Made by a program: the position numbers and the translations under genes. Source: a virus. Taken from it: 28,439 nucleotides of DNA. This document shows positions 8,434-25,670 of this stretch, piece after piece (the stretch's first letter is position 1; every line of letters begins with the position of its first letter). The stretch spans positions 1 to 28,439 of the IMG/VR virus record IMGVR_UViG_3300017788_000128; one strand, written 5' to 3'. The notes under the pieces are model-generated. The model had not been told where the DNA came from and searched no databases. It worked only from the letters and a program-made list of their open reading frames with translations.

Positions 8434-8448
8434 ATTTCTCCTACCTTT

Positions 8449-8457
8449 ATTATATCA
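8449..8457 (-). promoter_or_regulatory. Extended -10 for the LamG gene
   Basis: TGATATAAT lies 15 nt upstream of the ATG at 8433, directly after the reductase stop codon. Here the leader is long enough to hold the Shine-Dalgarno GGTAGGAG. Confidence 0.5.
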
Positions 8458-8458
8458 G

Positions 8459-10489
8459 TTAGGATATTTTTATTTCACAGGTATCAGTGGTGCAATAAGC
8501 CTCTCCCAAGGCCTCAAGATTGTCTACTCCGTCATAAATTGCAGACCAGTTAATCTTCTTTATCTGACCAACATAAGAGTTATACTCGTCTTTTGTAATT
8601 TGAGTATATGGTTGTTGTGGATATGTCTTATTGCCCATAGGCAAGAATGATAATGCTTTAAGTTGACCCTCATACATATGAAGTGCTGGAGCAACATGCT
8701 CTGTTTCTTTTTCCTTGTCAAATGAAAGGGTAACAGAAACACCATTATCAGACCAATACTTCTGAGTTGTAGCAGCAAGGCCAATCTTCTCAAATAAGGT
8801 TACATCTTTTTCAGATCTAGCATGTCCAGAATGAACTGGAAAATATACAACAGTTGTATTTTGTGATACAAGATCTGCCTCAGTTTTATACCCTGCTGCT
8901 TTAAATAAATGAATCATTGGATCTGTGTTTCCAAAACGAATTGCACGAAGGAAGAAGTTTCCTCCTGGTCCCCAGTGAACTCCTGGAGTTGCACCAGATA
9001 ACAATGACACTGAGCCTGAAGGCTTAACGGTTGTTACACGAATAGACTCACGAACACATAGCCACTCAGAATATGAATGATCGTATTTACGAATAGTCTT
9101 ATATCCTTCATCCATCCATTCACGAACTGCTGGCAAACCTTTTTGATCTGCAAAAGAAGCAATGCCAGTAAGCGATGTTCCAATACGACGGTTGCGTTGC
9201 ATAATACCGTTTGTAATCTGCCAATGTGTAGGAACAAGAGTAACGGTCTTGCCATATAGATAAGCAAACTTTAAAGTACGCAAGAAATCTTCTTTAGATT
9301 CATGACGATTTAAATGTACCTCTACAAGTGTGCAGAGTTCATATGATTCTAATGGTTGCTCAGCACAAGGATTGAATCCCATTACACGATAATCTTTTCC
9401 ATCTGCAGGATCTGCAAGACGGCCATAGTTACGAGCAACATCAAGCCAAATAAATCCTGGTTCTCCATTGTCTGCAATTAAATCTACATAATTTTCATAC
9501 TTGGTTCCAACTTCTGCTGCAATGGAATTATTACTCATCCATGCCCATCCAGGATTTTCTGGATCAAATGAGTTGCGCTCTGGAAACATCTCTGAATTCT
9601 TTAAATTAATAAATCCATCATCTGATGGACTTCCAAGTGCGAGGGTAGCAGAACGACGAACATTTCCTGCAACCACACAAGTTCCAATAAGATTTACAAT
9701 ATCAACAATTGCACGAGAATCAAGAATATCTCCTGCTCTATCTCCAATTACTTTACGAATGGTTTTGTGTAATTTAATTAAAGGTGCTGGACCTGAAGCG
9801 GTACCGCCAAAACCTTTAATAGGTGCACCTAATGGTCTAATTAAAGAATAATCAAAATTAATCTTAGCCTGACCTTGTTTCAAATATGAATTAATAAGTA
9901 GTCTTACAGATTCTACCCATCCTTCTCTTGTATCAGGTATTTGATATGATATTTCTTCTTTGGTATTGGTATATATTTCCATACCCTTTTCTTGTCCAAG
10001 GGTGTCAAATCCTACTCCTACCCCAAGCATCAGAGCATCCATAACCCAGCCAAAAAGGGCTCCAGGGTCGTTTCTATCAATGTCCCTAGTAGATACCATG
10101 GCACAGTTCTGTAAGGCCGCAGAATTGCGTCTCTCCATCGTCATAGGGGTACCAAAAGCCCATAGTCCACGACCTGGGGGAGTCCATTTAAGATTAAACA
10201 TACGATCATAGGCTTCTTGAGCAGACTTCTGTGCCTTATTGTCATTCCAAGGAAGGCGATTTTCTTTAGCATGATTCTTTTGAACAGAGTACATTCCTTC
10301 AATTACCCGCTTACAAACCTCATGCCAGCGTTCTTTTGTGCCATCTTCTTTGACTCTTGAATATGTACGGATAAAAGTTATCTCACCTAAAGAGTTGCCA
10401 CCTGCGTCGGTAAAGCCAAAAGGAGACTCAACATCTTTATATTTATTAACAAATTCATCCAATAGCCTAAAAGAAAATACATCTGACAT
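8459..10489 (-). CDS. nrdJ: Class II (B12-dependent) ribonucleotide reductase
   Basis: This enzyme reduces ribonucleoside triphosphates to deoxynucleotides, using adenosylcobalamin to make the active-site thiyl radical. It resembles the monomeric Lactobacillus leichmannii type, at 676 residues against about 739. Key residues are in place: Cys129 and Cys386 (substrate-reducing pair), NPCAEQ with Cys375 (thiyl) and Glu377, and a C-terminal redox pair CTTDTC (Cys666 and Cys671). The phosphate-binding loop VKPSGSVSLLSGATPGVH is at 488-505. The gene is uninterrupted and probably active. It lies between structural genes, away from any other nucleotide-metabolism gene in view. It has its own promoter and a 5' hairpin, and no cobalamin riboswitch was recognised. 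The ATG lies about 12 nt behind a weak GAGAGG. Confidence 0.95.
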   Translation of the reverse strand: MSDVFSFRLLDEFVNKYKDVESPFGFTDAGGNSLGEITFIRTYSRVKEDGTKERWHEVCKRVIEGMYSVQKNHAKENRLPWNDNKAQKSAQEAYDRMFNLKWTPPGRGLWAFGTPMTMERRNSAALQNCAMVSTRDIDRNDPGALFGWVMDALMLGVGVGFDTLGQEKGMEIYTNTKEEISYQIPDTREGWVESVRLLINSYLKQGQAKINFDYSLIRPLGAPIKGFGGTASGPAPLIKLHKTIRKVIGDRAGDILDSRAIVDIVNLIGTCVVAGNVRRSATLALGSPSDDGFINLKNSEMFPERNSFDPENPGWAWMSNNSIAAEVGTKYENYVDLIADNGEPGFIWLDVARNYGRLADPADGKDYRVMGFNPCAEQPLESYELCTLVEVHLNRHESKEDFLRTLKFAYLYGKTVTLVPTHWQITNGIMQRNRRIGTSLTGIASFADQKGLPAVREWMDEGYKTIRKYDHSYSEWLCVRESIRVTTVKPSGSVSLLSGATPGVHWGPGGNFFLRAIRFGNTDPMIHLFKAAGYKTEADLVSQNTTVVYFPVHSGHARSEKDVTLFEKIGLAATTQKYWSDNGVSVTLSFDKEKETEHVAPALHMYEGQLKALSFLPMGNKTYPQQPYTQITKDEYNSYVGQIKKINWSAIYDGVDNLEALGEAYCTTDTCEIKIS

Positions 10490-12340: not shown

Positions 12341-14686
12341 TTACGCTTCGATTAGCGTTCTGTGCACCTTTACTGTTGTACCATTTGTTGATGTTACGAG
12401 TAGACGAACATCTGATCCTGAGTAGTCTGCATCAATTGCACCAATCTGTGCATTACTTTGAACATCTGCATACTCAGTGATATAAACATTGTTATTTCCA
12501 TCGACTGTTACAAGGGCCTCTAGAACTTCAATGTCATCTCCATTACGCATTTGAACTACGTACTTGGCAGACTTAAATGTTGCTGCCGCCCATGCGTCTA
12601 CTACAGTTGCGCTAGTTGTTGTAACGCTTGTTGTAGCAGTGCCCATAAGAGCATCTGTAAGTGTTACATATCCAACGCCAATGCTTACGAATGCTGGGCT
12701 AGATGTTGTAGCAATGCTTTGTGGTAAAGATAATGTTACTGCACCAGTTGATGTTGATGCTATAACTTGATCTGCTGTTCCTGCTAGGCTTGTTACGCCT
12801 GCGTTTGTAATTGTAAGAACATTGTTTGTTGAAGCATAAGATGCTGTGATTCCTGTACCGCCAGTTACTGCGTTACCGAATGCATCAATTGATGTTTCAA
12901 TATCAGATGTGAAGGCTAGTGTACCTGTTGCATCTTGAAGTGTAATTGTACGATCTGCTGTTGGATCCGTTACTGTTAATGTTGTTTCATGATCATTTGC
13001 TGTACCCTCAAAAACAATACTTGAATCATCTAACTTAAGACCAGTTACTGTTGGTGTAGTAAGTGTTGGACTTGTTAGAGTTTTGTTTGTAAAAGTCTGT
13101 GCTGTGGTAAGATCTGCTGTAACTCCAGTATTGATGCTGAATGAGTTACCAGTTAGTGTTAATCCGTTTCCAGCAACAAATGTTCCTGCTCCAGAAAATT
13201 GTGAGAAAGTAATTTCTGTTACACCAATAGTTACAGAATTATTTGTACAAACAAAACCTTTGTCTGCATTTGAAGTTCCTGCCTCAACAAATGTAAAGGC
13301 TGATGGAAATTCACTACCTTCATTCATATCTAATGAACGAGTTGGTGCTCCAGAGGCTTGAACTACATAAATACCATTAGCAGTTGCATCTGTTTGATCC
13401 TTAATAAGAATTCTGTCACCAGTTGCAAGAGTTACACCATCTATTACACTTCCATTATCAAAATCAGTGGCAAGTGTTCCATTTTCAGTTGTAGCAACTC
13501 TTACAGATGCTTTAACGTCTAATCCTTGTGCTACAGAATCAACATATTGTTTTGTTGCTGCTTCTAGAGCCTGTGAAGGATCTGCATTTAGAGTTACAGT
13601 TCCTGGAAATACTACTGTATTTGGAAGAGATAGAACAATGTCACCAGTAGTTGAACTTACTGCAATCTGACTTGTTGTACCACTCACGCTAGAAACACCA
13701 GCAGTGATATTAATTGATCCACCAAGAGAAGTTGCAGTTCCATTAATTGTAATGCTTGAATTTGCAAGCATTGCATTTGTAACAGTGCCTGAATCACCTG
13801 TGGTAACTACTGTACCAGTTACATCTGGTAGTGTAATTGTGCGATCTGCAGTAGGATCAGTTACAGTCAAAGTTGTTTCATGATCATTTGCAGTTCCTTC
13901 AAAGACAATGCTTGAATCTGAAAGATATAAGCCAGAAACTTGCGGTGATGTAAGAGTTTTATTTGTAAGTGTCTGTGTTCCAGATGTTGTTGCTACCGTT
14001 GAATCAATTGCTACTGTTACCGCTGAAGATCCATCATAAGATGTTCCTGAAAGGCCAGTACTAATTGTCAACGCATTTGGATTAACTGCTGTAACTGTTG
14101 CAGAACCACCAAGAGAAATTGAAGATCCGTTTACTGTTAGTGAAGAATTTGTTAAAGATCCATTGCCAATATTTGTAATTGTATTTGATGTACCTGAAAT
14201 AGTTTTATTTGTAAGGGTTTCACTACCCGCTAAAGTTGCAAAGTCTGCATCGCTAAGTGCGGTATTAAACTGTGCAATAGTTCCTGAAAGGGTATTGCTT
14301 GAAAGATTTATTGTTTTATTTGTTAGAGTATCTGTTGTTGCCTTACCAACAAGTGTATCTGTAGCATTTGGCAATGTTACTGTTTGATCTTGTGTTGGTT
14401 CTGGTGAAAGAAGTGTTAGTTCATAATCATCTGGTGTATTTCCTTCAAAGATGATTCTATCTGCAAATGTTGGTGTTTCCGATACTGCTGCATCAATTAC
14501 GCCTGTTGTATCATTATATGTAAATGTAATACCTGTTTGTGTACCGCCTGTGAACATCGCTGCAGTAGTATCTTGCAGAAATTCTGTGCTCGCCTCTGTA
14601 AGAACGTTTGAGCCATTAACTGTAGCAGATGATCCTTCTACTACCAGGCCGTTCTTGATGCGAAAGGCTTTGTCGACTGTAGCCAT
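12341..14686 (-). CDS. Long repetitive tail fibre
   Basis: A 781-residue fibre made of repeating beta modules. SSIVFEGTANDHETTLTVTD followed by PTADRTIT occurs twice almost unchanged (about residues 255 and 560). TLTNKT/TFTNKT units occur at least four times, and a third, diverged copy of the first module (IIFEGNTPDDYELTLLSPEP) is near the start. Around residues 380-495 a distinct domain (ATKQYVDSVAQGLDVKASVR, then TLATGDRILIKDQTDATANG) is a phage tail domain often seen in long fibres. The last 80 residues (KYVVQMRNGDD to HRTLIEA) are homologous to the end of the neighbouring 145-residue protein. The start has Shine-Dalgarno AAGGAG. It probably forms a trimeric fibre shaft with an exchangeable tip. 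Confidence 0.85.
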   Translation of the reverse strand: MATVDKAFRIKNGLVVEGSSATVNGSNVLTEASTEFLQDTTAAMFTGGTQTGITFTYNDTTGVIDAAVSETPTFADRIIFEGNTPDDYELTLLSPEPTQDQTVTLPNATDTLVGKATTDTLTNKTINLSSNTLSGTIAQFNTALSDADFATLAGSETLTNKTISGTSNTITNIGNGSLTNSSLTVNGSSISLGGSATVTAVNPNALTISTGLSGTSYDGSSAVTVAIDSTVATTSGTQTLTNKTLTSPQVSGLYLSDSSIVFEGTANDHETTLTVTDPTADRTITLPDVTGTVVTTGDSGTVTNAMLANSSITINGTATSLGGSINITAGVSSVSGTTSQIAVSSTTGDIVLSLPNTVVFPGTVTLNADPSQALEAATKQYVDSVAQGLDVKASVRVATTENGTLATDFDNGSVIDGVTLATGDRILIKDQTDATANGIYVVQASGAPTRSLDMNEGSEFPSAFTFVEAGTSNADKGFVCTNNSVTIGVTEITFSQFSGAGTFVAGNGLTLTGNSFSINTGVTADLTTAQTFTNKTLTSPTLTTPTVTGLKLDDSSIVFEGTANDHETTLTVTDPTADRTITLQDATGTLAFTSDIETSIDAFGNAVTGGTGITASYASTNNVLTITNAGVTSLAGTADQVIASTSTGAVTLSLPQSIATTSSPAFVSIGVGYVTLTDALMGTATTSVTTTSATVVDAWAAATFKSAKYVVQMRNGDDIEVLEALVTVDGNNNVYITEYADVQSNAQIGAIDADYSGSDVRLLVTSTNGTTVKVHRTLIEA

Positions 14687-16368: not shown

Positions 16369-16926
16369 TTGGTACGTAGTAGATTACTATCAGGGGGAGT
16401 AGCAATAACTTTTGGCTTGACCATGCTTTTGGGTGCCATGCCACAGGCTAATGCTATAAAAACTTTACTAGAACAAGACCAGCCTAATGCTGTTGCCGCC
16501 CCAAAGGCGGTTTTTTTGGTTTCTAAGCCTAGTAAAGATATTACACTTGAAAAATATCAAAACGCAACCAGTCTAACTGACCTGCAACTTGTAGAGTTGT
16601 TAAAAGCCGTCGGATTTTCTGGCAAAGGCCTTAAGATTGCATATGCAGTCGCTAAGGCTGAAAGCAATGGCAGACCTTATGCATTTAATGGAAATATCAA
16701 AACTTTAGATCAAAGTTACGGTGTGTTCCAAATTAATATGCTAAGTATGCTAGGAGAAGATCGCCGTGAGCGATTTGATCTAGCCCATAACGCTGACCTA
16801 TTCAATCCCGTCATCAATGCAAAAATTGCATACCGTATGACTAAGGGTGGAGAGGACTGGAGCGCATGGTCGTCCTATAACAAAGGCGCTATATATAAAT
16901 GGCTAGATAAATTCCCTAATCAATAA
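16369..16926 (+). CDS. Secreted lytic transglycosylase (SLT fold)
   Basis: A 185-residue exported muralytic enzyme. The start is TTG, fixed by Shine-Dalgarno TTGGAGG 6 nt upstream. Residues 1-29 are a signal peptide: basic MVRSR, a hydrophobic core (GGVAITFGLTMLLGAMP) and a cleavage site after AQANA-like residues (A29). The C-terminal domain (about 88-185) is transglycosylase-like: KIAYAVAKAESNG with the likely catalytic Glu98, SYGVFQIN (117-124) and WSAWSSYN (164-171). It is the only plus-strand gene within the tail region, with its own promoter and terminator. It could be a signal-peptide endolysin or a virion/host-envelope remodelling enzyme. I see no cell-wall-binding repeat. Confidence 0.85.
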   Translation: MVRSRLLSGGVAITFGLTMLLGAMPQANAIKTLLEQDQPNAVAAPKAVFLVSKPSKDITLEKYQNATSLTDLQLVELLKAVGFSGKGLKIAYAVAKAESNGRPYAFNGNIKTLDQSYGVFQINMLSMLGEDRRERFDLAHNADLFNPVINAKIAYRMTKGGEDWSAWSSYNKGAIYKWLDKFPNQ

Positions 16927-16978: not shown

Positions 16979-16984
16979 ATTTAA

Positions 16985-17263
16985 TTAAATTTCAATCCAA
17001 GAATTTGTAGATTCATCCCAGATGTAGTTTCCTTCTTCTGGAGCAGCAACTGGCGCTTCCCAACGATTGTTTGCGTTTAGCACCCAACTTGGGTATGGCT
17101 TACGTGGAATAAATACTTCACCAACATATGTGCCACCTGCTTCTGCAGATTCTGCTGTAAATTCTACACATGTCTTGCCTGTTACTTCCTCAGCGATTGC
17201 TTTGGAATCTGCAACGATTGTGTTAAGTACGTTCTCTTCGTCTAAAACTGCAAATTTAGCCAT
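16985..17263 (-). CDS. Small cassette-terminal tail protein, copy 1
   Basis: A 92-residue protein, MAKFAVLDEENVLNTIVADS at the start, then VFIPRKPYPSWVLNANNRW and a closing WDESTNSWIEI. The PKPYPSWVLN..W.APV....Y.WDE.T..W pattern is one I recall from many aquatic phage tail clusters, where such genes follow fibre or adhesin genes. It is nearly identical to the product of 20270-20566, and the first 50 coding positions are a perfect DNA repeat (17205-17254 and 20508-20557). The start lies one base after the stop of the glycine-rich protein, with AGAGG upstream. It may be a fibre chaperone, tip or decoration protein. Confidence 0.8.
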   Translation of the reverse strand: MAKFAVLDEENVLNTIVADSKAIAEEVTGKTCVEFTAESAEAGGTYVGEVFIPRKPYPSWVLNANNRWEAPVAAPEEGNYIWDESTNSWIEI

Positions 17264-17264
17264 A

Positions 17265-18056
17265 TTATAATCCTCTTAACACATAGACAAATCCGCTGCT
17301 ACCAGCACCACCAGCGGCACCACCAGGTGTTTGACTTGCACCATTTCCGCCTGTAGAACCTGGAGTTGACATAAAAAGATATGGAGCATTGGATGATGGG
17401 CTTCCAGATGCCCCTGTTGTTGCTGGAATCGTATTTCCAATAGGAGGTGTTGCGCCACCACCGCCGTTTGCAGATAATAAATTTCCAAAATTTGTTACTC
17501 CGCCAGCATTTCCAGCAGTGGCAGCAGCACCACCATTACCACCAGTCCCTATTGTAATAGGTGTTGAAGTATTTGTAAAAAAATTGCTGCCTGCAAATCC
17601 ACCAGTGCCGCCGCTTGCGCCATTTCTATATACTGCACTACCCGAACCGCCACCAGCACCGCCAACACAAACTACATAAAGTTGTCCAGTTGTATTATAA
17701 GTACTAGTTGTTGTTATAGTATCTAAAGTTCCACTTGCATTTGAAGAAATTGATTGCCCTGTAAGTGTAATGGAAACTAGAACATTTGAACCACTGCTAA
17801 CATAATATCCAATCTTACTAATTGCTTGTGCAAGGTTAACCGAAACTGTTCCACTTGCGGTTGTACCAGTTGTCACAATTTCTCCACTACTATTATAAAA
17901 ATCTACAACTGCAACAATGCCACTAGAACATGTAATACTATAAATCCCTGGGTCAAAAGGTTGAATTGATTGATAATAAGATGTTGTTGCTGTAGCAGTA
18001 AATGTTTTTGCAATTGTACTTGCAGCCTCATCAGCAATTAAACTACTAATAGCCAT
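17265..18056 (-). CDS. Glycine-rich tail adhesin-like protein, cassette 1
   Basis: 263 residues. The first 130 are beta-rich (SYYQSIQPFDPGIYSITCSS, ending GTLDTITTTSTYNTTGQLYV). The second half is built of Gly-rich loops (GGAGGGSGSAVYRNGASGGT, GTGGNGGAAATAGNAGG, GGNGASQTPGGAAGGAGSSG) and ends VYVLRGL. This resembles glycine-rich distal tail adhesins such as T-even gp38, where polyglycine-type helices carry variable receptor-contact loops. Related proteins are encoded at 20568-21551 and 22647-23387. The ATG overlaps the previous stop (TAATG) behind GGAG, so translation is coupled. Confidence 0.8.
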   Translation of the reverse strand: MAISSLIADEAASTIAKTFTATATTSYYQSIQPFDPGIYSITCSSGIVAVVDFYNSSGEIVTTGTTASGTVSVNLAQAISKIGYYVSSGSNVLVSITLTGQSISSNASGTLDTITTTSTYNTTGQLYVVCVGGAGGGSGSAVYRNGASGGTGGFAGSNFFTNTSTPITIGTGGNGGAAATAGNAGGVTNFGNLLSANGGGGATPPIGNTIPATTGASGSPSSNAPYLFMSTPGSTGGNGASQTPGGAAGGAGSSGFVYVLRGL

Positions 18057-18382
18057 TATGCAATCTCCGATCCAAATACCTGAAATGTAAGATTTGTGTC
18101 TGATCCTAAAACATATAATTGATCTGTTGCATCCATTGTAATACCCAGCGTTAATGCAATAACATTATTTGCAGTAATTGGTGTATCATATGCAATATAG
18201 TGTTTATCTGCTAGTCCTTCATTATTTGGACGAAGAATAATCCTGAATGTATTTTCTGCTGCCTCTCGATTTGCAATTACAATTGAAGAAACAATTGTTT
18301 GTGTAGCAGATGGGCAGGTATAAATTGATACCGCCGAAGTTGTGCTTGCCAACTGTCCCAAGACTTTATAAGTTGTTGCCAT
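18056..18382 (-). CDS. Small beta-rich tail protein, cassette 1
   Basis: 108 residues, MATTYKVLGQLASTTSAVSI then YTCPSATQTIVSSIVIANRE, a central AYDTPITANNVIALTLGITM and a final FQVFGSEIA. The product of 21551-21865 follows the same plan (MATTSKTLF..., YTVPTTSTTTVVTNIAVANT, HISGVEIV), so the two are paralogues that each precede a glycine-rich adhesin gene. The fold is probably a beta sandwich that joins the adhesin to a fibre. Shine-Dalgarno AAGGAG lies 8 nt before the ATG. The stop overlaps the next start, and the DNA of this junction (GGAGATTG then ATAATG) is conserved in the second cassette. Confidence 0.75.
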   Translation of the reverse strand: MATTYKVLGQLASTTSAVSIYTCPSATQTIVSSIVIANREAAENTFRIILRPNNEGLADKHYIAYDTPITANNVIALTLGITMDATDQLYVLGSDTNLTFQVFGSEIA

Positions 18383-18415
18383 TAGATTTTCTCCTTATTT
18401 GAATATTGTACCATA

Positions 18416-19162
18416 TTATGCACCCATCAACATAAATACTTGAGGAACTGGATCTGTGGATATTGTTACGCTACCGCCCAAAGATACTGCTGATCCATTT
18501 ACGGTAATAGAACTATTTTCCAGCATAGTATTTGTTACAGTTGCTGTATCTCCTGTTGTAACAAGAGTACCAGTAATATTTGGAATTGTGATTGTTCTAT
18601 CTGCCGTCGGATTTGTGACGGTAAGAGTAGTCTCATGATCGTCAGCACTAGATCCTTCAAAAATAATACTTGAATCATTTAATGTAAGGCCAGTTACTAC
18701 AGGACTTGTTAATGTCTTATTTGACATTGTTAAGGTGTTATTTGTTGTTGCAACTACCGCCGTGTCAACGGAAAGTGTAATTGTACCAGCGGTACCACCT
18801 CCGCTTAAACCTGTGCCAGCGGTAACTCCAGAAATATCTCCATCATTAGCAGTCCAAGCAGAGCCACTATAATATTGAATTTGATTTAATGGATTTCCAC
18901 CAGCATCTTGTCTTACGAAACAAATTGTTCCATGAACAGGTGATGTTATTGCTGCATCTCTTGCAGCAGGATTAAGAAAATTATTAAAACCATCTAGGAT
19001 ATTTACAGTAGCATCAAAATTGACGGTATTTAAAAATGTTTGTGTATTAGTCCATTCATATGCTGAAGCAGTATCAATCTTTGCTCCAAAGGCATACCAC
19101 GTATCTCCAACCGAATCATACATGTAAGCGGGTTTACCGCTGTTGTCAAAGGATGCTGGCAT
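18416..19162 (-). CDS. Tail fibre with TLTNKT-type modules, cassette 1
   Basis: 248 residues. The N terminus MPASFDNSGKPAYMYDSVGD followed by TWYAFG matches the fibre of cassette 2 (DPKPGYVYDADVDTWFPLLG) and is probably the attachment segment. There follow GTICFVRQDAGGNPLNQIQY (fibre motif), GVTAGTGLSGGGTAGTITLS, TMSNKTLTSP, and one copy of the SSIIFEGSSADDHETTLTVT module with INGSAV-like strands. It ends PQVFMLMGA, like MTLMGAY in cassette 2. The start has no Shine-Dalgarno but sits 7 nt behind TGCTATAAT, with a second TGCTATAAT further upstream. Confidence 0.8.
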   Translation of the reverse strand: MPASFDNSGKPAYMYDSVGDTWYAFGAKIDTASAYEWTNTQTFLNTVNFDATVNILDGFNNFLNPAARDAAITSPVHGTICFVRQDAGGNPLNQIQYYSGSAWTANDGDISGVTAGTGLSGGGTAGTITLSVDTAVVATTNNTLTMSNKTLTSPVVTGLTLNDSSIIFEGSSADDHETTLTVTNPTADRTITIPNITGTLVTTGDTATVTNTMLENSSITVNGSAVSLGGSVTISTDPVPQVFMLMGA

Positions 19163-19169
19163 AGTTTAA

Positions 19170-19192
19170 ATTATAGCAGGGATTTCTGCTAT
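19170..19192 (-). promoter_or_regulatory. Extended -10 with dyad, fibre cassette 1
   Basis: TGCTATAAT (19170-19178) ends 7 nt before the ATG at 19162. Its TGCTAT is the arm of ATAGCAG-6 nt-CTGCTAT (19173-19192). No Shine-Dalgarno. Confidence 0.55.
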
Positions 19193-19206
19193 CTCCTCTA
19201 CCTGAA

Positions 19207-19215
19207 ATTATAGCA
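19207..19215 (-). promoter_or_regulatory. Second upstream extended -10
   Basis: A second TGCTATAAT lies 37 bp upstream of the first, just after the stop codon at 19219. It may be a tandem promoter for the same fibre gene. Confidence 0.4.
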
Positions 19216-19218
19216 TAT

Positions 19219-19926
19219 TTAACGATAGTCTTTAGGCTGTCTAAACTGCCTTTTATATGAGTCAAAAAATACAGTCCTTAGTTTGTTTGTTACCTTTGCC
19301 TGTTGCTGGAATTCTTCATTGCTACCGATTTCCATTTGGAACTCATCTCGTTTAAATGGAATAACTTGCATTATTGGAGTACCCGCTGGAATTAGACCAT
19401 CCATTTTTGGATCTCGCAAAACAAAGGGGAAGTTAACAGGAGCATTATAAGTATCAGTATCTACAACTCCAGGAAGAACAATAATAGGTGTTTCTCTATG
19501 AAGAGGAGATATAAATAATGATGAATATCCAGGAGGAGTTGTTATAGCCCAAGCATTTGTCCATTTTGGATATGATACTTCATGACCCTTGCCATCTGGA
19601 TGTTCTGGAAGTTGTTGTTTTGGATGAAATCCTAAAGCACCAAAATTAGCCCATTCATAATATGGTTGTAATTTTCCATTTTCATCTGGTTTTTGAGATA
19701 CAAATAAATCTGTATGAGTTGAAATTATATACCCGCCAGTTATGGCATCAAATATAGGCATACAGCGTTTTGCTGTTGCTGTAGTAGATGCATTTCCATC
19801 AGGTCTTTTTTCTCCACCAATATAAGACTCTAAATTCTTATACCATTCAGGAATTATTTTTGAAGCGGGTACTGGACGATATTCTTCTGGTACCCCAATA
19901 GTATCTGTAAATTTAATTATTTGCAT
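19219..19926 (-). CDS. Conserved phage protein of unknown function
   Basis: 235 residues from the ATG at 19926, which follows AAAGGAAG; a start further upstream would lie inside the preceding gene. Features include EEYRPVPASKIIPEWYKNLE, KRCMPIFDAITGGYIISTHT, NAWAITTPPGYSSLFISPLH and GTPIMQVIPFKRDEF. The pattern looks like a compact globular enzyme-like or binding protein rather than a fibre, and I have an impression of homologues in aquatic phages, but I cannot name a family or catalytic residues. It overlaps the zinc-ribbon gene by 14 nt, so the two are coupled. The pair is inserted between adhesin cassettes 1 and 2. Confidence 0.75.
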   Translation of the reverse strand: MQIIKFTDTIGVPEEYRPVPASKIIPEWYKNLESYIGGEKRPDGNASTTATAKRCMPIFDAITGGYIISTHTDLFVSQKPDENGKLQPYYEWANFGALGFHPKQQLPEHPDGKGHEVSYPKWTNAWAITTPPGYSSLFISPLHRETPIIVLPGVVDTDTYNAPVNFPFVLRDPKMDGLIPAGTPIMQVIPFKRDEFQMEIGSNEEFQQQAKVTNKLRTVFFDSYKRQFRQPKDYR

Positions 19927-20191
19927 TATCTTCCTTTTGTAATTCTGTAAATAAATTAGCAATATCTACTACCAATCTATCCTCAATTTTTTCATTTTCT
20001 TGTTCTGCAAATTTAGCAATCTTATTCAATATGTTTGGAAGTGTTATTAATTCAGCAAATTTATTATTGATACCGCACATTCTACAAAAATTCATACCCA
20101 TTTTTTGCACGGTATATAATTTAAAACTTTCCTTACAACTAAAACATTCAGCAGTTGTTATATCAGGAATGTATGTTAGATCTTTTTCCAT
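19913..20191 (-). CDS. Zinc-ribbon protein
   Basis: 92 residues. Two CxxC pairs, Cys16/Cys19 (CFSC) and Cys36/Cys39 (CRMC), should bind one zinc. The rest is helical and acidic (LNKIAKFAEQENEKIEDRLV), suggesting a small regulatory or adaptor protein. Shine-Dalgarno GGGGGT precedes the ATG; TGCTATACT lies 18 nt before it, directly after a terminator hairpin, so the gene starts a new transcript. Its 3' end overlaps the following gene by 14 nt. No DNA-binding function can be claimed from sequence alone. Confidence 0.75.
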   Translation of the reverse strand: MEKDLTYIPDITTAECFSCKESFKLYTVQKMGMNFCRMCGINNKFAELITLPNILNKIAKFAEQENEKIEDRLVVDIANLFTELQKEDNANN

Positions 20192-20209
20192 AATTACCCC
20201 CAGATATTT

Positions 20210-20218
20210 AGTATAGCA
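20210..20218 (-). promoter_or_regulatory. Extended -10 of the zinc-ribbon operon
   Basis: TGCTATACT lies 18 nt before the ATG at 20191 and 7 nt after the hairpin at 20226-20249. Confidence 0.5.
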
Positions 20219-20225
20219 TAACTAA

Positions 20226-20249
20226 AGCCCCTATGCAAATATAGGGGCT
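20226..20249 (-). terminator. Terminator hairpin after cassette 2
   Basis: AGCCCCTAT-6 nt-ATAGGGGCT, a perfect 9-bp stem, lies about 20 nt after the stop codon at 20270. A short T-containing tract (TTTAGTT) overlaps the stem end on the minus strand, so termination may be partial. Confidence 0.75.
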
Positions 20250-20269
20250 AGAAGTTATTTAATTATTGT

Positions 20270-20566
20270 TTATGATTCAATCCAAGAAGTTGTTGATTCA
20301 TCCCAGGTATAATATTTTGGATTTTCTTCATCAAATGCTGGGTAAGCAACTGGTGCCTCCCATGAGTTATTTGCATTGAGCACCCAACTTGGATAAGGTT
20401 TACGTGGAATAAATACTCCACCAACATAGGTGCCACCTGCTTCTGCACGATCTGTTTCGCTAAATTCTACACATGTCTTGCCTGTGACTTCTTCAGCAAT
20501 TGCTTTAGAATCTGCAACGATTGTGTTAAGTACGTTCTCTTCGTCTAAAACTGCAAAGTTAGCCAT
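20270..20566 (-). CDS. Small cassette-terminal tail protein, copy 2
   Basis: 98 residues, a near-duplicate of the product of 16985-17263: the first 35 residues differ at one position (MANFAV against MAKFAV), then a few-residue difference (SETDRAEAGGTYVGG against TAESAEAGGTYVGE), an identical RKPYPSWVLNANN, and a longer acidic insert (PAFDEENPKYYTWDE) before the closing WDESTTSWIES. DNA identity is high over the whole gene. It follows the glycine-rich gene by one base with GAGAGG upstream, the same junction as in cassette 1. This indicates recent duplication of the seam, with divergence of the adhesin between. Confidence 0.8.
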   Translation of the reverse strand: MANFAVLDEENVLNTIVADSKAIAEEVTGKTCVEFSETDRAEAGGTYVGGVFIPRKPYPSWVLNANNSWEAPVAYPAFDEENPKYYTWDESTTSWIES

Positions 20567-20567
20567 A

Positions 20568-21551
20568 TTAGAATCCTCTCAATACGTAAACGACGCCTGG
20601 GGAGCCACTTTTGCCTATATGTGTAGCCTGTACATTTGTAGCGCCACCGCCGCCGCCACCTGCACCATATCCCGAGCCAGCATTTGCTACAATACTGTGT
20701 TTTCCACCATTTCCACCAGTTCCTATACCAGAACCTTTGCCAGATCCAATAGTTCCATTACCTGCACCGCCACCTCCACCGCCACTGCTTGCACCAGTTA
20801 CTGAATTGTGTTTAGAAATTGTTTCAGTTGCAGTATCTGGAGCAGTGCCAGTACTTCCTCGGCCTCCATCACCGCCATTAGTACCATTTCCACCAGTGAA
20901 AGTTCCACCAGTTCCACCATCAGTGGCAGCAGCACCACCATTACCACCATTAGCAGTTAAGATATTTCCAAAAGTTGTTGACCCGCCAGAGTTTCCACTT
21001 ACTTGAGTATTACCAGCATTTCCGCCATTTCCTATTGTTATGCTTGTTGAGGTGTTTGTGTATGTGATTATGCCAGTAATTGCTCCACCACCGCCGCCGC
21101 CGCCTGCTCCGCTACTAGAAGCAAAAGTACCTCCACCTCCACCTGCTCCAATAGCCACTGCATAAAGTAGTCCAGTTGTGTTATAGGTTGATGTTGTTGT
21201 GATAGTATCTAAAGTTCCAGATAGAGTAGACCCCGAAGTGTTTGAAGAAGTATAAGTAATTGTAACTGCTGTACTTGTCGAACCACTTGTATCTGTAAGA
21301 TAAATTTGTGTTGCATCTGATGCAATAGAAAATGAAACTGTTCCACTTACAGTAGTGTTATTTGATAAAGTAGATGTTGCATCTGCAAAAACAACATTGA
21401 CCTGTGATGTAGCAGGAGATGTTGTTACAGTATAGCCACCTGCTGCAAATGTACCATTAATTTCATATGTTTTATATGCTTCAGTTATATTAAATGCTTG
21501 ACCGTCTGGACCAGATGCGGTGGAAGGCGCTGGAAATACTGAAATACTCAT
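20568..21551 (-). CDS. Glycine-rich tail adhesin-like protein, cassette 2
   Basis: 327 residues. The N-terminal half is beta-rich with YEINGTFAAGGYTVTTSPA and ends SGTLDTITTTSTYNTTGLLY, a segment nearly identical to cassette 1 (STYNTTGQLYVV). From about residue 130 it is dominated by glycine: GAGGGGGTFASSSGAGGGGG, GGNGTNGGDGGRGSTG, GAGNGTIGSGKGSGIGTGG, ending VVYVLRGF. The conserved ends and variable Gly-rich middle fit a distal adhesin whose loops choose the receptor. The start ATG overlaps the upstream stop as TAATG with GGAG nearby. Confidence 0.8.
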   Translation of the reverse strand: MSISVFPAPSTASGPDGQAFNITEAYKTYEINGTFAAGGYTVTTSPATSQVNVVFADATSTLSNNTTVSGTVSFSIASDATQIYLTDTSGSTSTAVTITYTSSNTSGSTLSGTLDTITTTSTYNTTGLLYAVAIGAGGGGGTFASSSGAGGGGGGGAITGIITYTNTSTSITIGNGGNAGNTQVSGNSGGSTTFGNILTANGGNGGAAATDGGTGGTFTGGNGTNGGDGGRGSTGTAPDTATETISKHNSVTGASSGGGGGGAGNGTIGSGKGSGIGTGGNGGKHSIVANAGSGYGAGGGGGGATNVQATHIGKSGSPGVVYVLRGF

Positions 21552-21865
21552 TATACAATCTCCACTCCGCTAATATGAAAATTAATTGTTGTTGCAGATG
21601 CTGATCCAGTAATTGTTTTTGGAGTAGCATTTGCATCTAAAACTTGCTTCATGTCAATAACAGCAGTTGAATTTTCAGCAAGTGGTACTGCGGATAATAC
21701 TGCTACCCCGTCAATATTAATAGTGAATGTTCCTGTTGCTGCTGCAGTATTTGCAACTGCAATATTTGTAACTACTGTTGTAGTAGATGTGGTTGGAACT
21801 GTATAAAGAGTAGTGTTGCTTGTTGCTGCAGCACCACGAAATAGTGTTTTACTTGTTGTAGCCAT
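21551..21865 (-). CDS. Small beta-rich tail protein, cassette 2
   Basis: 104 residues: MATTSKTLFRGAAATSNTTL, YTVPTTSTTTVVTNIAVANT, GTFTINIDGVAVLSAVPLAE, NSTAVIDMKQVL and a closing INFHISGVEIV. It is paralogous to the product of 18056-18382 and holds the same position before a glycine-rich adhesin gene. Shine-Dalgarno GGAGGTAG precedes the ATG, and CCTATAAT lies 20 nt before it. The stop is fused to the next start (TAATG). Likely a connector between fibre and adhesin. Confidence 0.75.
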   Translation of the reverse strand: MATTSKTLFRGAAATSNTTLYTVPTTSTTTVVTNIAVANTAAATGTFTINIDGVAVLSAVPLAENSTAVIDMKQVLDANATPKTITGSASATTINFHISGVEIV

Positions 21866-21885
21866 TAGTTACTACCTCCAGTAGT

Positions 21886-21893
21886 ATTATAGG
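21886..21893 (-). promoter_or_regulatory. -10 element of cassette 2
   Basis: CCTATAAT lies 20 nt upstream of the ATG at 21865, with GGAGG between them. No TG extension. Confidence 0.35.
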
Positions 21894-21898
21894 ACATT

Positions 21899-22348
21899 TT
21901 AATATGCCCCCATTAGTGTCATGATTGTTAAATCGTCTACCTGGGCGGTAGTAGCCAAAGTAACTGTTCCAGTTGGAATTGTAACAGTACCAGAATTAGA
22001 AATAGAAGAAATAATAGGTGTTGTTAAAGTTTTATTTGTTAGGGTTTGGGCGGTATTTAAATCTACCGTCACTGTTGTATCAATAGCAATTGAAGGAATT
22101 GGACCTGTAGCATCTGTAACAGAAATACCATTTCCTGATGTTACCGCCGTAATATCGCCAGTCTCACCGCTATTAACCCAGTTTGTACCATTGTACATAA
22201 GTACTTGGTTAGTTGCGGGGGTAGTTAAAACAACATCTGTTAAATCTTCTAAAGACTGTGTTGCTAAACCAAGAAGGGGAAACCAAGTATCTACATCTGC
22301 GTCATAGACATACCCTGGTTTTGGGTCGGTAGTGTTAATAGTTGCCAT
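21899..22348 (-). CDS. Tail fibre with TLTNKT-type modules, cassette 2
   Basis: 149 residues. The N terminus TTDPKPGYVYDADVDTWFPL is shared in plan with the cassette 1 fibre. It continues ATNQVLMYNGTNWVNSGETG (a common phage-fibre phrase), DITAVTSGNGISVTDATGPI, which is almost repeated in the product of 23384-24694, then AQTLTNKTLTTP and a closing TIMTLMGAY. It is a shortened version of the cassette 1 fibre lacking the DHETTLTV module. The ATG follows TGTTATAAT by 6 nt with no Shine-Dalgarno. Confidence 0.8.
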   Translation of the reverse strand: MATINTTDPKPGYVYDADVDTWFPLLGLATQSLEDLTDVVLTTPATNQVLMYNGTNWVNSGETGDITAVTSGNGISVTDATGPIPSIAIDTTVTVDLNTAQTLTNKTLTTPIISSISNSGTVTIPTGTVTLATTAQVDDLTIMTLMGAY

Positions 22349-22354
22349 TATTAT

Positions 22355-22379
22355 ATTATAACAGAATTACTCTGTTATA
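22355..22379 (-). promoter_or_regulatory. Extended -10 within a perfect dyad
   Basis: TGTTATAAT (22355-22363) ends 6 nt before the ATG at 22348. It overlaps TATAACAGA-5 nt-TCTGTTATA (22357-22379), 9-bp perfect arms, which also spans the stop codon of the upstream gene. The dyad may be an operator or a 3'-end hairpin. Confidence 0.6.
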
Positions 22380-22650
22380 CCTCGCTTTCTGGTGTTACTA
22401 TTTCTACTGGTTTTGTTTTAAATTCATCAAGTTCTGGATCATATATCATTCCAGTACCAGCATATCTACCTCTAAACTCTTCTTCAAGTGATGTTTGTTT
22501 CCACTCTGTATCTTCTCCAAATAAATTTTTTAAAAATGATATACCTAAAGGTTCTGATTCTGGAAAAGTTTTATTTTCAAGAACGTTATTGTCTACAACA
22601 TATATGTCTTGACACGTGTTATTACTAATTTTAACAAAATAAGATATCAT
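22375..22650 (-). CDS. Small cassette-terminal tail protein, cassette 3
   Basis: 91 residues. MISYFVKISNNTCQDIYVVD, PLGISFLKNLFGEDTEWKQT, FRGRYAGTGMIYDPELDEF and a closing KPVEIVTPESEV. The W.QT...GRYAG.G..YD...D.F order is that of the longer form of the family represented by 16985-17263 and 20270-20566, though it lacks the PKPYPSW part. It holds the equivalent place after a glycine-rich adhesin gene and overlaps it by 4 nt (ATGA). Homology to the other two copies is inferred from pattern and position, not from clear identity. Confidence 0.7.
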   Translation of the reverse strand: MISYFVKISNNTCQDIYVVDNNVLENKTFPESEPLGISFLKNLFGEDTEWKQTSLEEEFRGRYAGTGMIYDPELDEFKTKPVEIVTPESEV

Positions 22651-23387
22651 CCTATCACCACGATAACTCTTCCTGCGCCACCTGAACCACCGATGTTACC
22701 GCCCCTTCCAACATTGCTAGAGTTTCCACTTCCGTTAACGCCTGCTCCACCGCCAGCATAACCTACTGCGCTTCCAGTTATATTTAAAGTTATTTCAGGA
22801 CCACCCGAGTGACCATTCGGAGTTCCTCCAGCACCGCCACCACCTGCTCCACTACTAGTATTTCCTCCAGCAAATCCTTGGTCAGGAGTTCCGCTTCCTG
22901 CTGGTCCACCACCACTAAAGTTAAAAGCACCGCCACCACTTCCTCCAGATTTTGGTCCTAATCCACTTATAACACCACTACCATCTCTTCCGCTACCGCC
23001 ACCACCACCTACAGCATAATACTGCCAAATATATGACGATGTTCCTTGATTTCCTGGACCACCGTTATTACTACTACTTATATTAGTTCCACCAGCACCA
23101 ACTGCTACTGTTAAATTTTCTGCTGGTAAAAATGCTGATGCTTCATATAAGACTCCTCCAGCACCACCTCCAGATGTTAAGTTTCCGACTCCACCACCAC
23201 CGCCGCCTGCAATAACTGCTATTTCAGCATAGCCAGCAGTACCCACAGTAATTGATCCACTACCGTTAAACTCATAAATTGTTTTTCCTGCACGAGCATT
23301 ATTATTTGTTGTTGGTGATCCAGAAGTTGTATTAACTGTTGCTTTTCCAATACCGCCAAGAGAAACAGGGCTAAATGTAGGACTCAT
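22647..23387 (-). CDS. Glycine-rich tail adhesin-like protein, cassette 3
   Basis: 246 residues. A short N-terminal segment (MSPTFSPVSLGGIGKATVNT) leads to YEFNGSGSITVGTAGYAEIA and then the Gly-rich body: VIAGGGGGGVGNLTSGGGAG, GAGGTNISSSNNGGPGNQG, GGSGGGAFNFSGGGPAGSG, GGAGVNGSGNSSNVGRGGN, closing RVIVVIG. The body begins with the V(I/V)AGGGGGG pattern typical of phage glycine-rich tip proteins. It lacks the long beta N terminus of the copies in cassettes 1 and 2. The start overlaps the preceding stop (ATGA) and the stop overlaps the next start. Confidence 0.8.
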   Translation of the reverse strand: MSPTFSPVSLGGIGKATVNTTSGSPTTNNNARAGKTIYEFNGSGSITVGTAGYAEIAVIAGGGGGGVGNLTSGGGAGGVLYEASAFLPAENLTVAVGAGGTNISSSNNGGPGNQGTSSYIWQYYAVGGGGGSGRDGSGVISGLGPKSGGSGGGAFNFSGGGPAGSGTPDQGFAGGNTSSGAGGGGAGGTPNGHSGGPEITLNITGSAVGYAGGGAGVNGSGNSSNVGRGGNIGGSGGAGRVIVVIG

Positions 23388-24694
23388 GCGTATTTAACCG
23401 CCCCTGCTGCTAACATCTTAAAAGTAGCATCTGCTGTTTTTACAATTGTAAATGAATAAACATCAAGACTTGATGCGTTTCCTGCGCTAGGCGCAGTTCC
23501 GCCAGACCAGTTTACTGTAACTCCGCTTGTTGTACCATCTACCTGATAAATATTTGGATAATATGGTGTTGCTCCATTTGTATTAAGCCATAAAACAGTG
23601 ACTGAATCTCCTACAGCCAAAAGTGTATTCATAGATGTTGTTGAACTACCTCTAAAATTAAGTGTATGGTTTCCTGTAGCATCTGACGTATAATACCAAA
23701 CTCCAGATGTAAGAACATCGACATTAATTGTTCCTGTTGCTGCTGAAGCAACAATATTCCAACGCTCTTCTGGTCCAACAAAAACTGGAGAACTTACAGT
23801 TGCTGATGTAATGGTTGGGGCAGTTCCAAAAACCAATAACCCAGAACCAGTTTCATCAGTTACTGCTGCTGCAAGATTTGCAGAAGACGGGGTAGCCAAA
23901 AATGTAGCAACACCAGTACCTAATCCAGATACTGCAGAAGTAATTGCAATATCAGTAATTGTATTTGATGTACCGCTAATTGTTTTATTTGATAAAGTTA
24001 ATGTGTTATTTGTTGTAGCAACTACCGCCGTGTCTACGGCAACAGAAGGAACTGGACCAGTTGAACTTGTAACCGAAATACCAGTGCCAGATGTTACGGC
24101 TGTAAGATCGCCAGTGTCATTTGCAATCCACTCAAGACCACTTGTTGTAGATGAGTTAACTGCCAAAATATATCCATTAGTTGATGCAGCATTTAAAACT
24201 GATGCAGTATCATTTGCAGTTCCAATAATAATATCTCCCTTGGCAGAAATAACTGCTTGTGGAATAAATGGATTTGATGTAATTGATGTTGGATCTTTAT
24301 CTACCCAAATTACACCAGTTGAAAGATCTGATGTTGGAACAGAGTTTGTAAAAACTGAAGTTGCAGAAACTGGTTGTCCACCAATTGTTCCATCTTGATC
24401 TACCCAGATATATCCATTTGGAATTCCTGAAGGAGTAAAGTCTCCTGGAACTGGAACGGTAGTAGCAACATCTCCACCAGATGATGGACGATTTTCTAGA
24501 TCAACGATGTCTTGCTGAATATCATAAATTGTTTTTGCCATAGATGGCGTAACAAGTGAGCCTGGTGAGGTATTTGCTGGGCTATAAGCATATGATCCAT
24601 AGTGATATACACGAAGAGCAGCCTGAATATCTGCTGCATCTGCATAGCCTGGGATTGCTGTTGGAATTAACGCTCCAATTGATTCTGCTGCCAT
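23384..24694 (-). CDS. Tail fibre with TLSNKT-type modules, cassette 3
   Basis: 436 residues. The N-terminal region (PTAIPGYADAADIQAALRVY, MAKTIYDIQQDIVDLENRPS) contains a short coiled coil, usual for a trimeric fibre. Then come two copies of a PNGYIWVDQDG / TGVIWVDKDP phrase, GDIIIGTANDTASVLNAAST, LTAVTSGTGISVTSSTGPVP and TLTLSNKTISGTSNTIT. The C-terminal 130 residues (EERWNIVASAATGTINVDVL to FKMLAAGAVKYA) match a compact beta domain often found at the end of phage fibres. Shine-Dalgarno GGAGAGG is present; GGTATAAT lies 17 nt before the ATG. Confidence 0.8.
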   Translation of the reverse strand: MAAESIGALIPTAIPGYADAADIQAALRVYHYGSYAYSPANTSPGSLVTPSMAKTIYDIQQDIVDLENRPSSGGDVATTVPVPGDFTPSGIPNGYIWVDQDGTIGGQPVSATSVFTNSVPTSDLSTGVIWVDKDPTSITSNPFIPQAVISAKGDIIIGTANDTASVLNAASTNGYILAVNSSTTSGLEWIANDTGDLTAVTSGTGISVTSSTGPVPSVAVDTAVVATTNNTLTLSNKTISGTSNTITDIAITSAVSGLGTGVATFLATPSSANLAAAVTDETGSGLLVFGTAPTITSATVSSPVFVGPEERWNIVASAATGTINVDVLTSGVWYYTSDATGNHTLNFRGSSTTSMNTLLAVGDSVTVLWLNTNGATPYYPNIYQVDGTTSGVTVNWSGGTAPSAGNASSLDVYSFTIVKTADATFKMLAAGAVKYA

Positions 24695-24723: not shown

Positions 24724-25323
24724 TTATGGCACTATAGTTATCTGTAAATGGGTTGTAACTTGCACTCCGCTAGTATATGATGCAGTGTCTCCAAGGGCTA
24801 CCCAAGAAGAAGATGCATCATACTCTACAGCGTGTAAGTTGATTGTTAAATTGCTACCCGCCAAAGCAGGAATTTCCATGGAAGAAGCAATAGGGTTTTC
24901 ATATGCAATGCTATATTTAACATTGAAATTTTCTGCAGTTAACGGGGTACCAGAAATAGTAACAATATCTCCTACAGGTATTACTATCTGAGCATCTCCA
25001 TCTTCAAAGGTAGTTACAGCATTCTCTGAATAAATAGTAGGATTAATGTCTAATACTTCTACCCATGTATTTCCACCTGGTTCTGCTACATATTGAAAAA
25101 TATATCCATAGGTAGCACTTGGAGAAACGTTTACATAAAGATCATTAAGAAGCAGGGTTTGTCCTGCAAATATACCGCTACTAGTCGCAGAATTTGGATC
25201 ACCAGATCCTACAAAAAATTTATTTCCACGAGTACCCTGGGCTCCAATGTCAAGTTGAAGTTCAATTACACTTGGGGGTCCAAGGACAGTGACATCATCG
25301 TTAGATAATAATACATCTACCAT
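24724..25323 (-). CDS. Tail structural protein with collagen-like start
   Basis: 199 residues. After a short N terminus (VDVLLSNDDVTVLGPPSVIE) it has LQLDIGAQGTRGNKFFVGSG, the GxxGxxGN segment that opens many phage collagen-like or tail-knob domains, then GQTLLLNDLYVNVSPSATYG and YIFQYVAEPGGNTWVEVL, a strand pattern usual in this family. The C-terminal half is beta-rich with no catalytic motif. It overlaps the stop of the BppU-like gene as TAATG, so it is coupled. Probably a tail fibre or a connector carried by the BppU-like proteins. Confidence 0.75.
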   Translation of the reverse strand: MVDVLLSNDDVTVLGPPSVIELQLDIGAQGTRGNKFFVGSGDPNSATSSGIFAGQTLLLNDLYVNVSPSATYGYIFQYVAEPGGNTWVEVLDINPTIYSENAVTTFEDGDAQIVIPVGDIVTISGTPLTAENFNVKYSIAYENPIASSMEIPALAGSNLTINLHAVEYDASSSWVALGDTASYTSGVQVTTHLQITIVP

Positions 25324-25670
25324 TATGCAGCGCCTGTAACCTGCTCGGTAACTGTGATTGTGCCAGTAAGCAAGGTAAATACAAGTGATGGTAGATTTTG
25401 AATCTGAACGTCATAAACATATGTTCCAGCATCAAGAGTTCCACCAACACCTGGCAAAATTTTGCAAGTAACAGTATCGTTTACTGTATTAACTACAGCC
25501 TCTGCCTCAACAGAATAAGTTGGATTATCTCCACGACTTGTTGCAATAAAAAAATCAGCCTCATAGCCAGTTAAATCAAATGCTCCACCATTAGAAGTCT
25601 TTGGGCGAATGACAAATTCATTGGTATCACCTTTATAATAATTAAAATTATATGTTCCTGGAAACGCCAT
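25323..25670 (-). CDS. BppU-like protein, second copy
   Basis: 115 residues: AFPGTYNFNYYKGDTNEFVI, GGAFDLTGYEADFFIATSRG, DAGTYVYDVQIQNLP and FTLLTGTITVTEQVTG. The (K/R)GD(T)..F, FDLTG/DISDW and GTI(T/S)(V/M) landmarks agree with the products of 15356-15733 and 25768-26178. The fold is probably an immunoglobulin-like attachment domain. Its ATG is fused to the stop of a 33-residue gene (TAATG), with AAGGTAG upstream. Confidence 0.75.
   Translation of the reverse strand: MAFPGTYNFNYYKGDTNEFVIRPKTSNGGAFDLTGYEADFFIATSRGDNPTYSVEAEAVVNTVNDTVTCKILPGVGGTLDAGTYVYDVQIQNLPSLVFTLLTGTITVTEQVTGAA

Follow-up and report, generated by a model that had tools for sequence, protein, structure and literature searches.

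The 28,439 nucleotides of viral DNA considered here (the window) probably encode a three-socket receptor-binding array, each socket furnished with a trunk, an adhesin, and a chaperone, in which tips are exchanged socket by socket. The mechanism I propose is this. Each trunk has a socket-specific N-terminus, by which it is probably anchored at a different site of the tail end. Next comes a glycine-rich adhesin that would form the tip, in some sets with a small beta protein between trunk and adhesin, and the small protein encoded last most likely aids the folding and trimerisation of that adhesin, as gp25 does for gp24 in Pam3. Adhesin and chaperone tend to be inherited together, and recombination replaces them independently at each socket, the breakpoints lying at the borders of genes or of the glycine-rich domain. 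A phage could in this way change a single receptor at a time.

Three sets of genes at a conserved site

The genes of the array and of its surroundings, in the order in which the minus strand is read, are as follows.

25323..25670, minus strand: pA, BppU_N-like structural protein adjoining the array (phrog_1084, E 1e-18; PF10651, E 0.005, below cut-off)
24724..25323, minus strand: bp1, baseplate gene, conserved left border of the array (81-90% identity in eight relatives)
23384..24694, minus strand: fib3, slot-3 trunk, 436 aa, with a slot-specific N-terminus in its first ~90 aa (phrog_5906, phrog_38058)
22647..23387, minus strand: gly3, slot-3 glycine-rich adhesin, 246 aa (Pfam Gly_rich_2; phrog_2295, 4e-19)
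22375..22650, minus strand: term3, putative slot-3 chaperone, a short form without the C-terminal PSW..W segment (phrog_7759)
21899..22348, minus strand: fib2, slot-2 trunk, 149 aa
21551..21865, minus strand: beta2, slot-2 small beta protein of the usual slot-1 type (phrog_1276)
20568..21551, minus strand: gly2, slot-2 glycine-rich adhesin (Gly_rich_2; matches of its AF2 model below)
20270..20566, minus strand: term2, putative slot-2 adhesin chaperone (phrog_7759, phrog_14370; fold taken from a full-length relative)
19913..20191, minus strand: zn, small Cys-rich protein between slots 2 and 1 (weak Zn-ribbon match, below cut-off)
19219..19962, minus strand: hydA, conserved protein in the gap between slots 2 and 1 (phrog_7084, E 2e-53; conserved start at 19926)
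18416..19162, minus strand: fib1, slot-1 trunk, 248 aa (phrog_38058)
18056..18382, minus strand: beta1, slot-1 small beta protein (phrog_1276, E 2e-8)
17265..18056, minus strand: gly1, slot-1 glycine-rich adhesin (Gly_rich_2)
16985..17263, minus strand: term1, putative slot-1 adhesin chaperone
16369..16926, plus strand: lys, SLT-type lysozyme, conserved right border of the array (SLT_3, E 1.6e-17)

An earlier note had read these genes as three cassettes in series, and its open reading frames are all present, where it placed them, on the minus strand. There are indeed three sets, each intact, on the same strand and with its own trunk, but the series is not continuous: zn and hydA, unrelated to the sets, occupy 19219-20191 between sets 2 and 1, and hydA keeps that position in most three-slot relatives. 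At fib3/gly3/term3 and at the beta/gly and gly/term borders, the stop of one gene overlaps the start of the next or stands 1 nt from it. Ahead of zn, at 20249-20210, are sites resembling a terminator and a promoter. Promoter-like sites are no commoner in the array (25) than in shuffles (30.2), so that separate transcription units are no more than hinted at by such single sites.

The stretch from the baseplate gene to the lysozyme gene is a conserved site across relatives, in which lys holds the same place, on the strand opposite to the array. A sister of the window at 99.8%, L033, breaks off within the lysozyme gene. Of the 26 complete loci left after dereplication, 15 carry the same three trunks in unchanged order (two of these loci being near-identical), and in mapped relatives fib3 is the trunk directly following bp1. 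The trunks differ from one another, and each keeps its own slot across genomes. In close pairs their N-termini are well preserved, with median identities of 93% for fib1 (110 aa), 96% for fib2 (70 aa), and 87% for fib3, and the flanking bp1 and lys stand at 86% and 88%. The adhesins of the same pairs are hypervariable (gly1 35%, gly2 56%, gly3 40%), as are the terminal proteins (31-36%), which lie directly downstream of the adhesin in all three sets of the window and in most sets of relatives. A nucleotide search of annotated phages gave no match to the window, and a search for host hints in bacterial genome contigs, with the portal and protease, found none.

Might the three sets instead be successive parts of one composite fibre, trunk leading to trunk? 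In favour, the trunks are no longer than 149-436 aa, their number is lower in some relatives, and a trunk of locus L071 matches both fib2N and fib3N. I consider this reading improbable: each trunk has an adhesin and a terminal protein of its own behind it, and in relatives with a single set (L024/L028, L102, L031) that set is complete.

Relatedness of the sets and exchange of tips

Judged by their sequences, sets 1 and 2 are close and set 3 is remotely related. In blastp comparisons inside the window, term1 and term2 share 81% identity over 97 aa (E 9e-53), gly1 and gly2 41% over 266 aa (E 5e-49), and beta1 and beta2 32% over 111 aa (E 8e-12). At the DNA level, term1 and term2 are 82% identical, and two repeats, one of 131 nt (92%) and the other of 117 nt (83%), extend over the gly/term junction and term. 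The earlier note's claim of conserved ends and junctions thus holds for sets 1 and 2 and fails for set 3: term3 can be aligned to term1 and term2 solely through relatives (hhalign, 99% probability), and gly3 shares with gly1 and gly2 just Gly_rich_2 (hhalign, 89%), a low-complexity domain for which all three adhesins score above the curated cut-off of 24.3 bits (PF21722; gly1 30.0, gly2 26.7, gly3 32.5). The TLTNKT-type repeats might be taken as proof that the trunks share an origin. I reject this argument, because the repeats (blastp inside the window) link the trunks also to fibre genes outside the array, F781 (12341-14686) and g10653; they are a general fibre motif.

Trees place the term1/term2 pair inside a slot-1 clade, and term3 clusters with term2 of locus L029 and term1 of L096. 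The protein beta2 falls among slot-1 beta proteins, with 83% DNA identity to L025, and a beta protein of slot-1 type is found in slot 2 both of the window and of L118. The term1/term2 pair and the slot-1 type of beta in slot 2, together with the 131-nt repeat across the gly/term junction, are what one would look for if the array were a switching reservoir, in which one adhesin is displayed and the other sets donate for recombination or inversion within the genome; the earlier note had entertained a reservoir for switching by recombination. I find this highly improbable. Every set is intact and lies on the one strand, with a distinct trunk that keeps its slot. The inverted repeats in the window are 24-37 nt long with 70-83% complementarity, and none frames a cassette, so a DNA-inversion switch of the shufflon type can be rejected for this stretch; among the window proteins covered by the family scans, none matched a recombinase. 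Cross-slot DNA matches (at least 75% over 90 nt) are rare within genomes, three as against 69 between genomes, the latter count not being dereplicated. In the window, the trace of exchange within the genome is the term1/term2 pair. Exchange takes place mainly between genomes.

What is exchanged between genomes, in the array as I envisage it, can be seen by aligning relatives. Tips change slot by slot, and the breaks coincide either with gene borders or with the edge of the glycine-rich domain. Matches of 87-93% between the window and loci L034/L025 are interrupted around the tips, stopping and restarting at 18352/16984, 21547/20267, and 23978/22390; the DNA match to L034 picks up again at 16984, one base beyond the term1 stop. 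Loci L141 and L133 are 98% identical in slot 1 through tip and chaperone, and the slot-2 tip is replaced, the seams in L141 lying where the glycine-rich part begins. Between L119 and L124, the slot-3 tip is retained at 87%, and slots 2 and 1 are replaced. The relatives are metagenome contigs, and one seam taken alone might reflect chimaeric assembly, but several pairs have their seams at identical gene borders, which speaks against this. The seams are homologous, and gain, loss, and swapping of cassettes are all seen among relatives, which bears out the earlier expectation of modular adhesin sets and favours its reading of a multi-receptor array, whose three tips would be displayed together on the virion. 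With the adhesin matching solved glycine-rich phage tips as well (below), neither of the outcomes that the earlier note named as refuting it was observed.

Within slots, the identity of the tip correlates with that of the chaperone (r 0.31, 0.27, and 0.22; p 0.014, 0.005, and 0.023), and the correlation of tip with trunk is about zero. One of six cross-slot controls was also correlated (gly3 with term1, p 0.009, n 9). The relatives form a data set supplied by nature: trunk and flanks stay constant, receptor-binding tips are exchanged at single sockets, and so the rules of compatibility, of adhesin with partner and of trunk with tip, can be read from sequence.

The adhesin and its small partner

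For the three adhesins, the evidence on the tip fold comes from the AF2 model of gly2 (mean pLDDT 77), which has a beta-sandwich N-domain (about 18-103) and a glycine-rich tip (about 110-327). Two solved phage tips are clearly its top matches, the Bxb1 tail tip (Z 18.2) and Pam3 gp24 (Z 16.6; Foldseek E 8e-6), the next different molecule standing at Z 9.5; the model also matches the glycine-rich domain of ALK. Sequence searches of solved structures with the adhesin, terminal, beta, and hydA proteins gave nothing significant. The predicted fold of the gly2 tip domain is that of glycine-rich phage adhesins of the Pam3 gp24/Bxb1 type, and such adhesins would bind receptors.

The role of the terminal protein is harder to judge. 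A model of a 124-aa relative (pLDDT 95) finds as its first match, in both fold searches, Pam3 gp25, the chaperone of gp24. This is a weak match, with a Foldseek E of 1.1 and a Z of 5.7 for 55 residues, confined to the N-terminal half, and the model, with a single helix at residues 21-34, lacks gp25's C-terminal helical trimerisation domain. Neither DUF4376 nor any other tail-fibre chaperone domain of Pfam was found in 37 members of the family, at E up to 1. One might suppose, then, that the protein is structural and remains on the adhesin as its tip or cap, like Tfa of Mu, and aids receptor binding; certain Tfa proteins do stay on the virion (PMC9608196), and the terminal protein varies as much as the adhesin and co-varies with it. 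I regard this as unlikely, though less so than the two alternatives discussed above, for the chaperone that it best matches in fold was not found in virions by mass spectrometry (PMC9608196), and its gene is directly coupled to that of the adhesin in the window, an arrangement compatible with either role. Going by the model, a chaperone role is likelier for the terminal protein than a place at the tip of the virion. A role is thereby suggested for the phrog_7759 family of marine and freshwater phages, annotated as of unknown function.

Known systems and possible other kinds of tip

T-even phages such as T2 and S16 make a trunk, gp37, and encode a separate glycine-rich tip, gp38. The earlier comparison with gp37/gp38 survives loosely, as an analogy in that trunk and tip are separate genes; the window has the arrangement three times over, each time with an additional downstream gene, and the nearer solved pair is Pam3 gp24/gp25. 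No S16 gp38 structure is among the fold matches listed for gly2, which does not speak against such a fold.

Cyanophage Pam3 (PDB 7YPX; PMC9608196) offers the same glycine-rich tip fold and, more weakly, the N-terminal domain of a protein encoded just downstream. It differs in that its single fibre gene supplies a helical anchor of its own and its single chaperone includes a helical trimerisation domain, whereas the window has three sets, separate trunk genes, and a chaperone candidate without that domain. The likeness to chain Q of the tail tip of mycobacteriophage Bxb1 (PDB 9D93), with 30% identity over 181 residues, is one of structure. The multi-RBP systems of Klebsiella phages, G7C, and K1-5 (PMC6872550) also combine several RBPs whose N-terminal anchors are conserved and whose distal parts can be exchanged, and a truncated RBP has been proposed there as a docking site for new ones; but their RBPs bear depolymerases and only occasionally chaperone domains, unlike the glycine-rich tips and the one partner gene per socket found here. 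Alteromonas phages V22 and A5 (PMC7289586, PMC10579305) have a fibre and downstream chaperone module common to unrelated phages, but with DUF4376 chaperones and one module per phage. The literature searched, largely that open without subscription, describes no three-set array of this sort.

A lead from the relatives may be more novel than the array itself. In some of them, an ordered trio of genes, A-B-C, together with a small 77-aa protein, replaces the glycine-rich set; in L119 the trio occupies 8072-9684. The three are distinct paralogues, each class nearer to its own class in other phages than to its neighbours (by single-pass and class-specific searches, an iterated profile search having drifted into glycine-rich proteins), and therefore tips of three different subunits are suggested, rather than three copies of one. 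It is conceivable, and I offer it tentatively, that sockets accept structurally different tips, including a hetero-trimer of three different subunits swapped as a block. At other loci, members of B and C bear a glycine-rich domain, and A is bare.

A fixed site with three kinds of trunk

The earlier note had described three related cassettes in series, and its positions for them are borne out. The sets are present, but two genes lying between sets 2 and 1, zn and hydA, were overlooked, and the relatedness is uneven: sets 1 and 2 are homologous over most of their length (terminal protein, term, 81% identical; glycine-rich adhesin, gly, 41%; small beta protein, 32%), with the gly/term junction covered by a 131-nt repeat at 92%, while set 3 shares less and has no beta gene. 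Gly_rich_2 is above cut-off in the adhesins of all three sets, and profile comparison puts the set 3 terminal protein in the same family as those of sets 1 and 2. All sets share one strand and are tightly coupled, with overlaps at fib3/gly3, gly3/term3 and beta/gly and a gly/term spacing of 1 nt in sets 1 and 2 (fib being the trunk gene). Between term2 and zn, at 20249-20210, a terminator-like hairpin and an extended -10-like promoter site overlap, which suggests a transcription break inside the array. Many residues are invariant in the hydA family (phrog_7084; window 19219-19926), which also has a GTPxxQVIPFKR motif; it has neither an above-cut-off Pfam match nor a relative among solved structures, and other phage contigs carry it too, in tandem pairs.

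Nearly 190 loci came out of scans of viral contigs; 74 of them contain parts of the array (46 after dereplication, the window counted in). Profile-search maps of these relatives show a fixed site, bounded by bp1 on one side and the opposite-strand lysozyme on the other. The slot-specific trunk N-termini fib3N, fib2N and fib1N follow one another in that order in 15 of the 26 loci complete from bp1 to lysozyme, or 14 distinct loci, since two of them (L004 and L005) are 99.6% identical in DNA. One trunk is recognised in 8/26 and two in 3/26, by a conservative detection that scores L144 as two-trunk despite an untagged fib2-like trunk and that leaves several adhesin and terminal genes of L015 behind one recognised trunk. 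In L006 (292-5217), five glycine-rich ORFs in a row (321-333 aa) stand behind one terminal-protein gene, and pairs of them reach 79% DNA identity.

The 28.4-kb record is probably a fragment. Its RNR, portal, head protease and capsid genes are ordered as in Streptomyces phage Annadreamy (Stanwilliamsviridae), with 47% portal identity. The annotated phage set holds no near nucleotide relative, so host, habitat and morphology can only be inferred. Between RNR and portal sits a 1202-aa protein (4825-8433), 99% identical in L034, with a weak carbohydrate-binding domain at residues 98-168 and no match in a PHROG search.

Replacement of tips slot by slot

In close pairs, median identity is 83-96% for bp1, trunk N-termini, lysozyme and g15733 (the gene flanking the array beyond lysozyme), 31-36% for terminal proteins, and 35-56% for adhesins, whose values partly reflect glycine-rich composition. 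Outside the tips, the window matches L034 and L025 at 87-93%; inside them this match is lost. The breaks fall 30 nt into beta1 and one base past the term1 stop in slot 1, at the beta2/gly2 border and three bases past the term2 stop in slot 2, and, in slot 3, inside fib3 and 15 nt short of the term3 end. Slots change independently: L141 and L133 have slot 1 in common at 98%, tip and terminal gene included, and differ in slot 2, while L119 and L124 have the slot 3 tip in common at 87% and differ in slots 2 and 1. Relatives match L141 as far as residue 205 of its slot 3 adhesin, a position in the spacer immediately ahead of the glycine-rich part, and to about residue 201 in slot 2. For slot 1 the comparison is with L129, and there the match stops at residue 107, where the glycine-rich part has just begun.

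Slots keep some memory, yet tips also move from slot to slot: the terminal-protein tree needs 14 slot changes, against 20.6 with shuffled labels (0/200 shuffles as low). Window term1 and term2 group together in a clade whose other members come from slot 1; the end of slot 2 in the window is thus of slot-1 type. Window beta2 groups with slot-1 beta proteins, in a tree over which, as a whole, slot labels are not clustered. Adhesin-tip and terminal-protein identities correlate in every slot, and neither correlates with trunk identity. Of six cross-slot controls, one reached significance too, so the pairing is supported, not proven.

Exchange might have a driver at the flank. From about 15970 down to 1358 of the window (14.6 kb), a sister contig, L033, shows 99.8% identity, which drops to about 82% over the opening part of g15733. 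Its lysozyme differs, and between g15733 and lysozyme it has an HNH endonuclease gene that the window lacks at the array flank. Nine other contigs have the gene at the identical point, always 8-11 nt before g15733 on the lysozyme side.

HNH endonuclease genes at the array flank (contig, coordinates)
L033 346-909
L037 2636-3211
L051 2224-2721
L078 8186-8761
L081 1382-2008
L104 6872-7372
L107 1862-2437
L108 2314-2814
L122 12763-13299
L091 2-250

Homing could take neighbouring adhesin alleles along; the L033 contig stops before the adhesins.

Adhesin fold and putative chaperone

Two parts make up the gly2 model (24 sequences, mean pLDDT 77, weak at about 211-253): a beta-sandwich N-domain and a tip. 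The clear best matches of the tip are cyanophage Pam3 gp24 and the Bxb1 tail tip, followed by the ALK/LTK glycine-rich domain, and from these I infer polyglycine-II helices. The terminal protein modelled was a full-length one from a relative (L026 15822-16193; pLDDT 95). Pam3 gp25 is its nearest match in both structure searches, first among 350,542 chains, with a weak score. Weak as that score is, gp25 is the chaperone in the very solved complex whose fibre, gp24, is a top match of the adhesin, and gly and term genes adjoin. In Pam3 virions, gp25 went undetected (PMC9608196). The terminal proteins probably work like gp25. Unlike it, they have no helical domain, and they match no known chaperone family, so they are filed as gp25-like in action, not as members.

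I propose that the different trunk N-termini dock in different places and that three tips would be displayed jointly, each for different surface structures. Each terminal protein would fold its own adhesin, which would account for the two genes travelling together. Tips would most likely be replaced through homologous recombination in conserved trunk, spacer and intergenic sequences.

Trio tips of relatives

Multi-RBP loci with conserved anchors are already known (PMC6872550), as are fibre-chaperone modules common to different phages (PMC7289586, PMC10579305). The literature searched contained no case that combines three sockets, each with its own adhesin and putative chaperone, with independent exchange. 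Novelty is greatest, as a lead, in an alternative tip: an ordered trio A-B-C of paralogues (~155-210 aa) plus a ~77-aa protein, standing where adhesin and terminal protein otherwise are.

A-B-C trio and ~77-aa protein (contig, coordinates)
L119 8072-9957
L122 7746-9611
L144 8803-10669
L050 1946-3869
L026 13893-15772
L101 236-2060

The order is kept across phages, and same-class identities (A 39-49%, B 39-47%, C 37-42%) equal or exceed most values between classes (28-38%). All four L119 proteins are without Pfam or PHROG matches, and the class models do not match the three window adhesins. In a variant, an A-type protein precedes two proteins of ~420-460 aa that match classes B and C in their N-terminal domains and have glycine-rich regions at the C-terminus, that is, adhesin domains on two members.

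Variant trio, glycine-rich on two members (contig, coordinates)
L084 392-7636
L026 17347-20567
L046 128-3309
L058 378-3684
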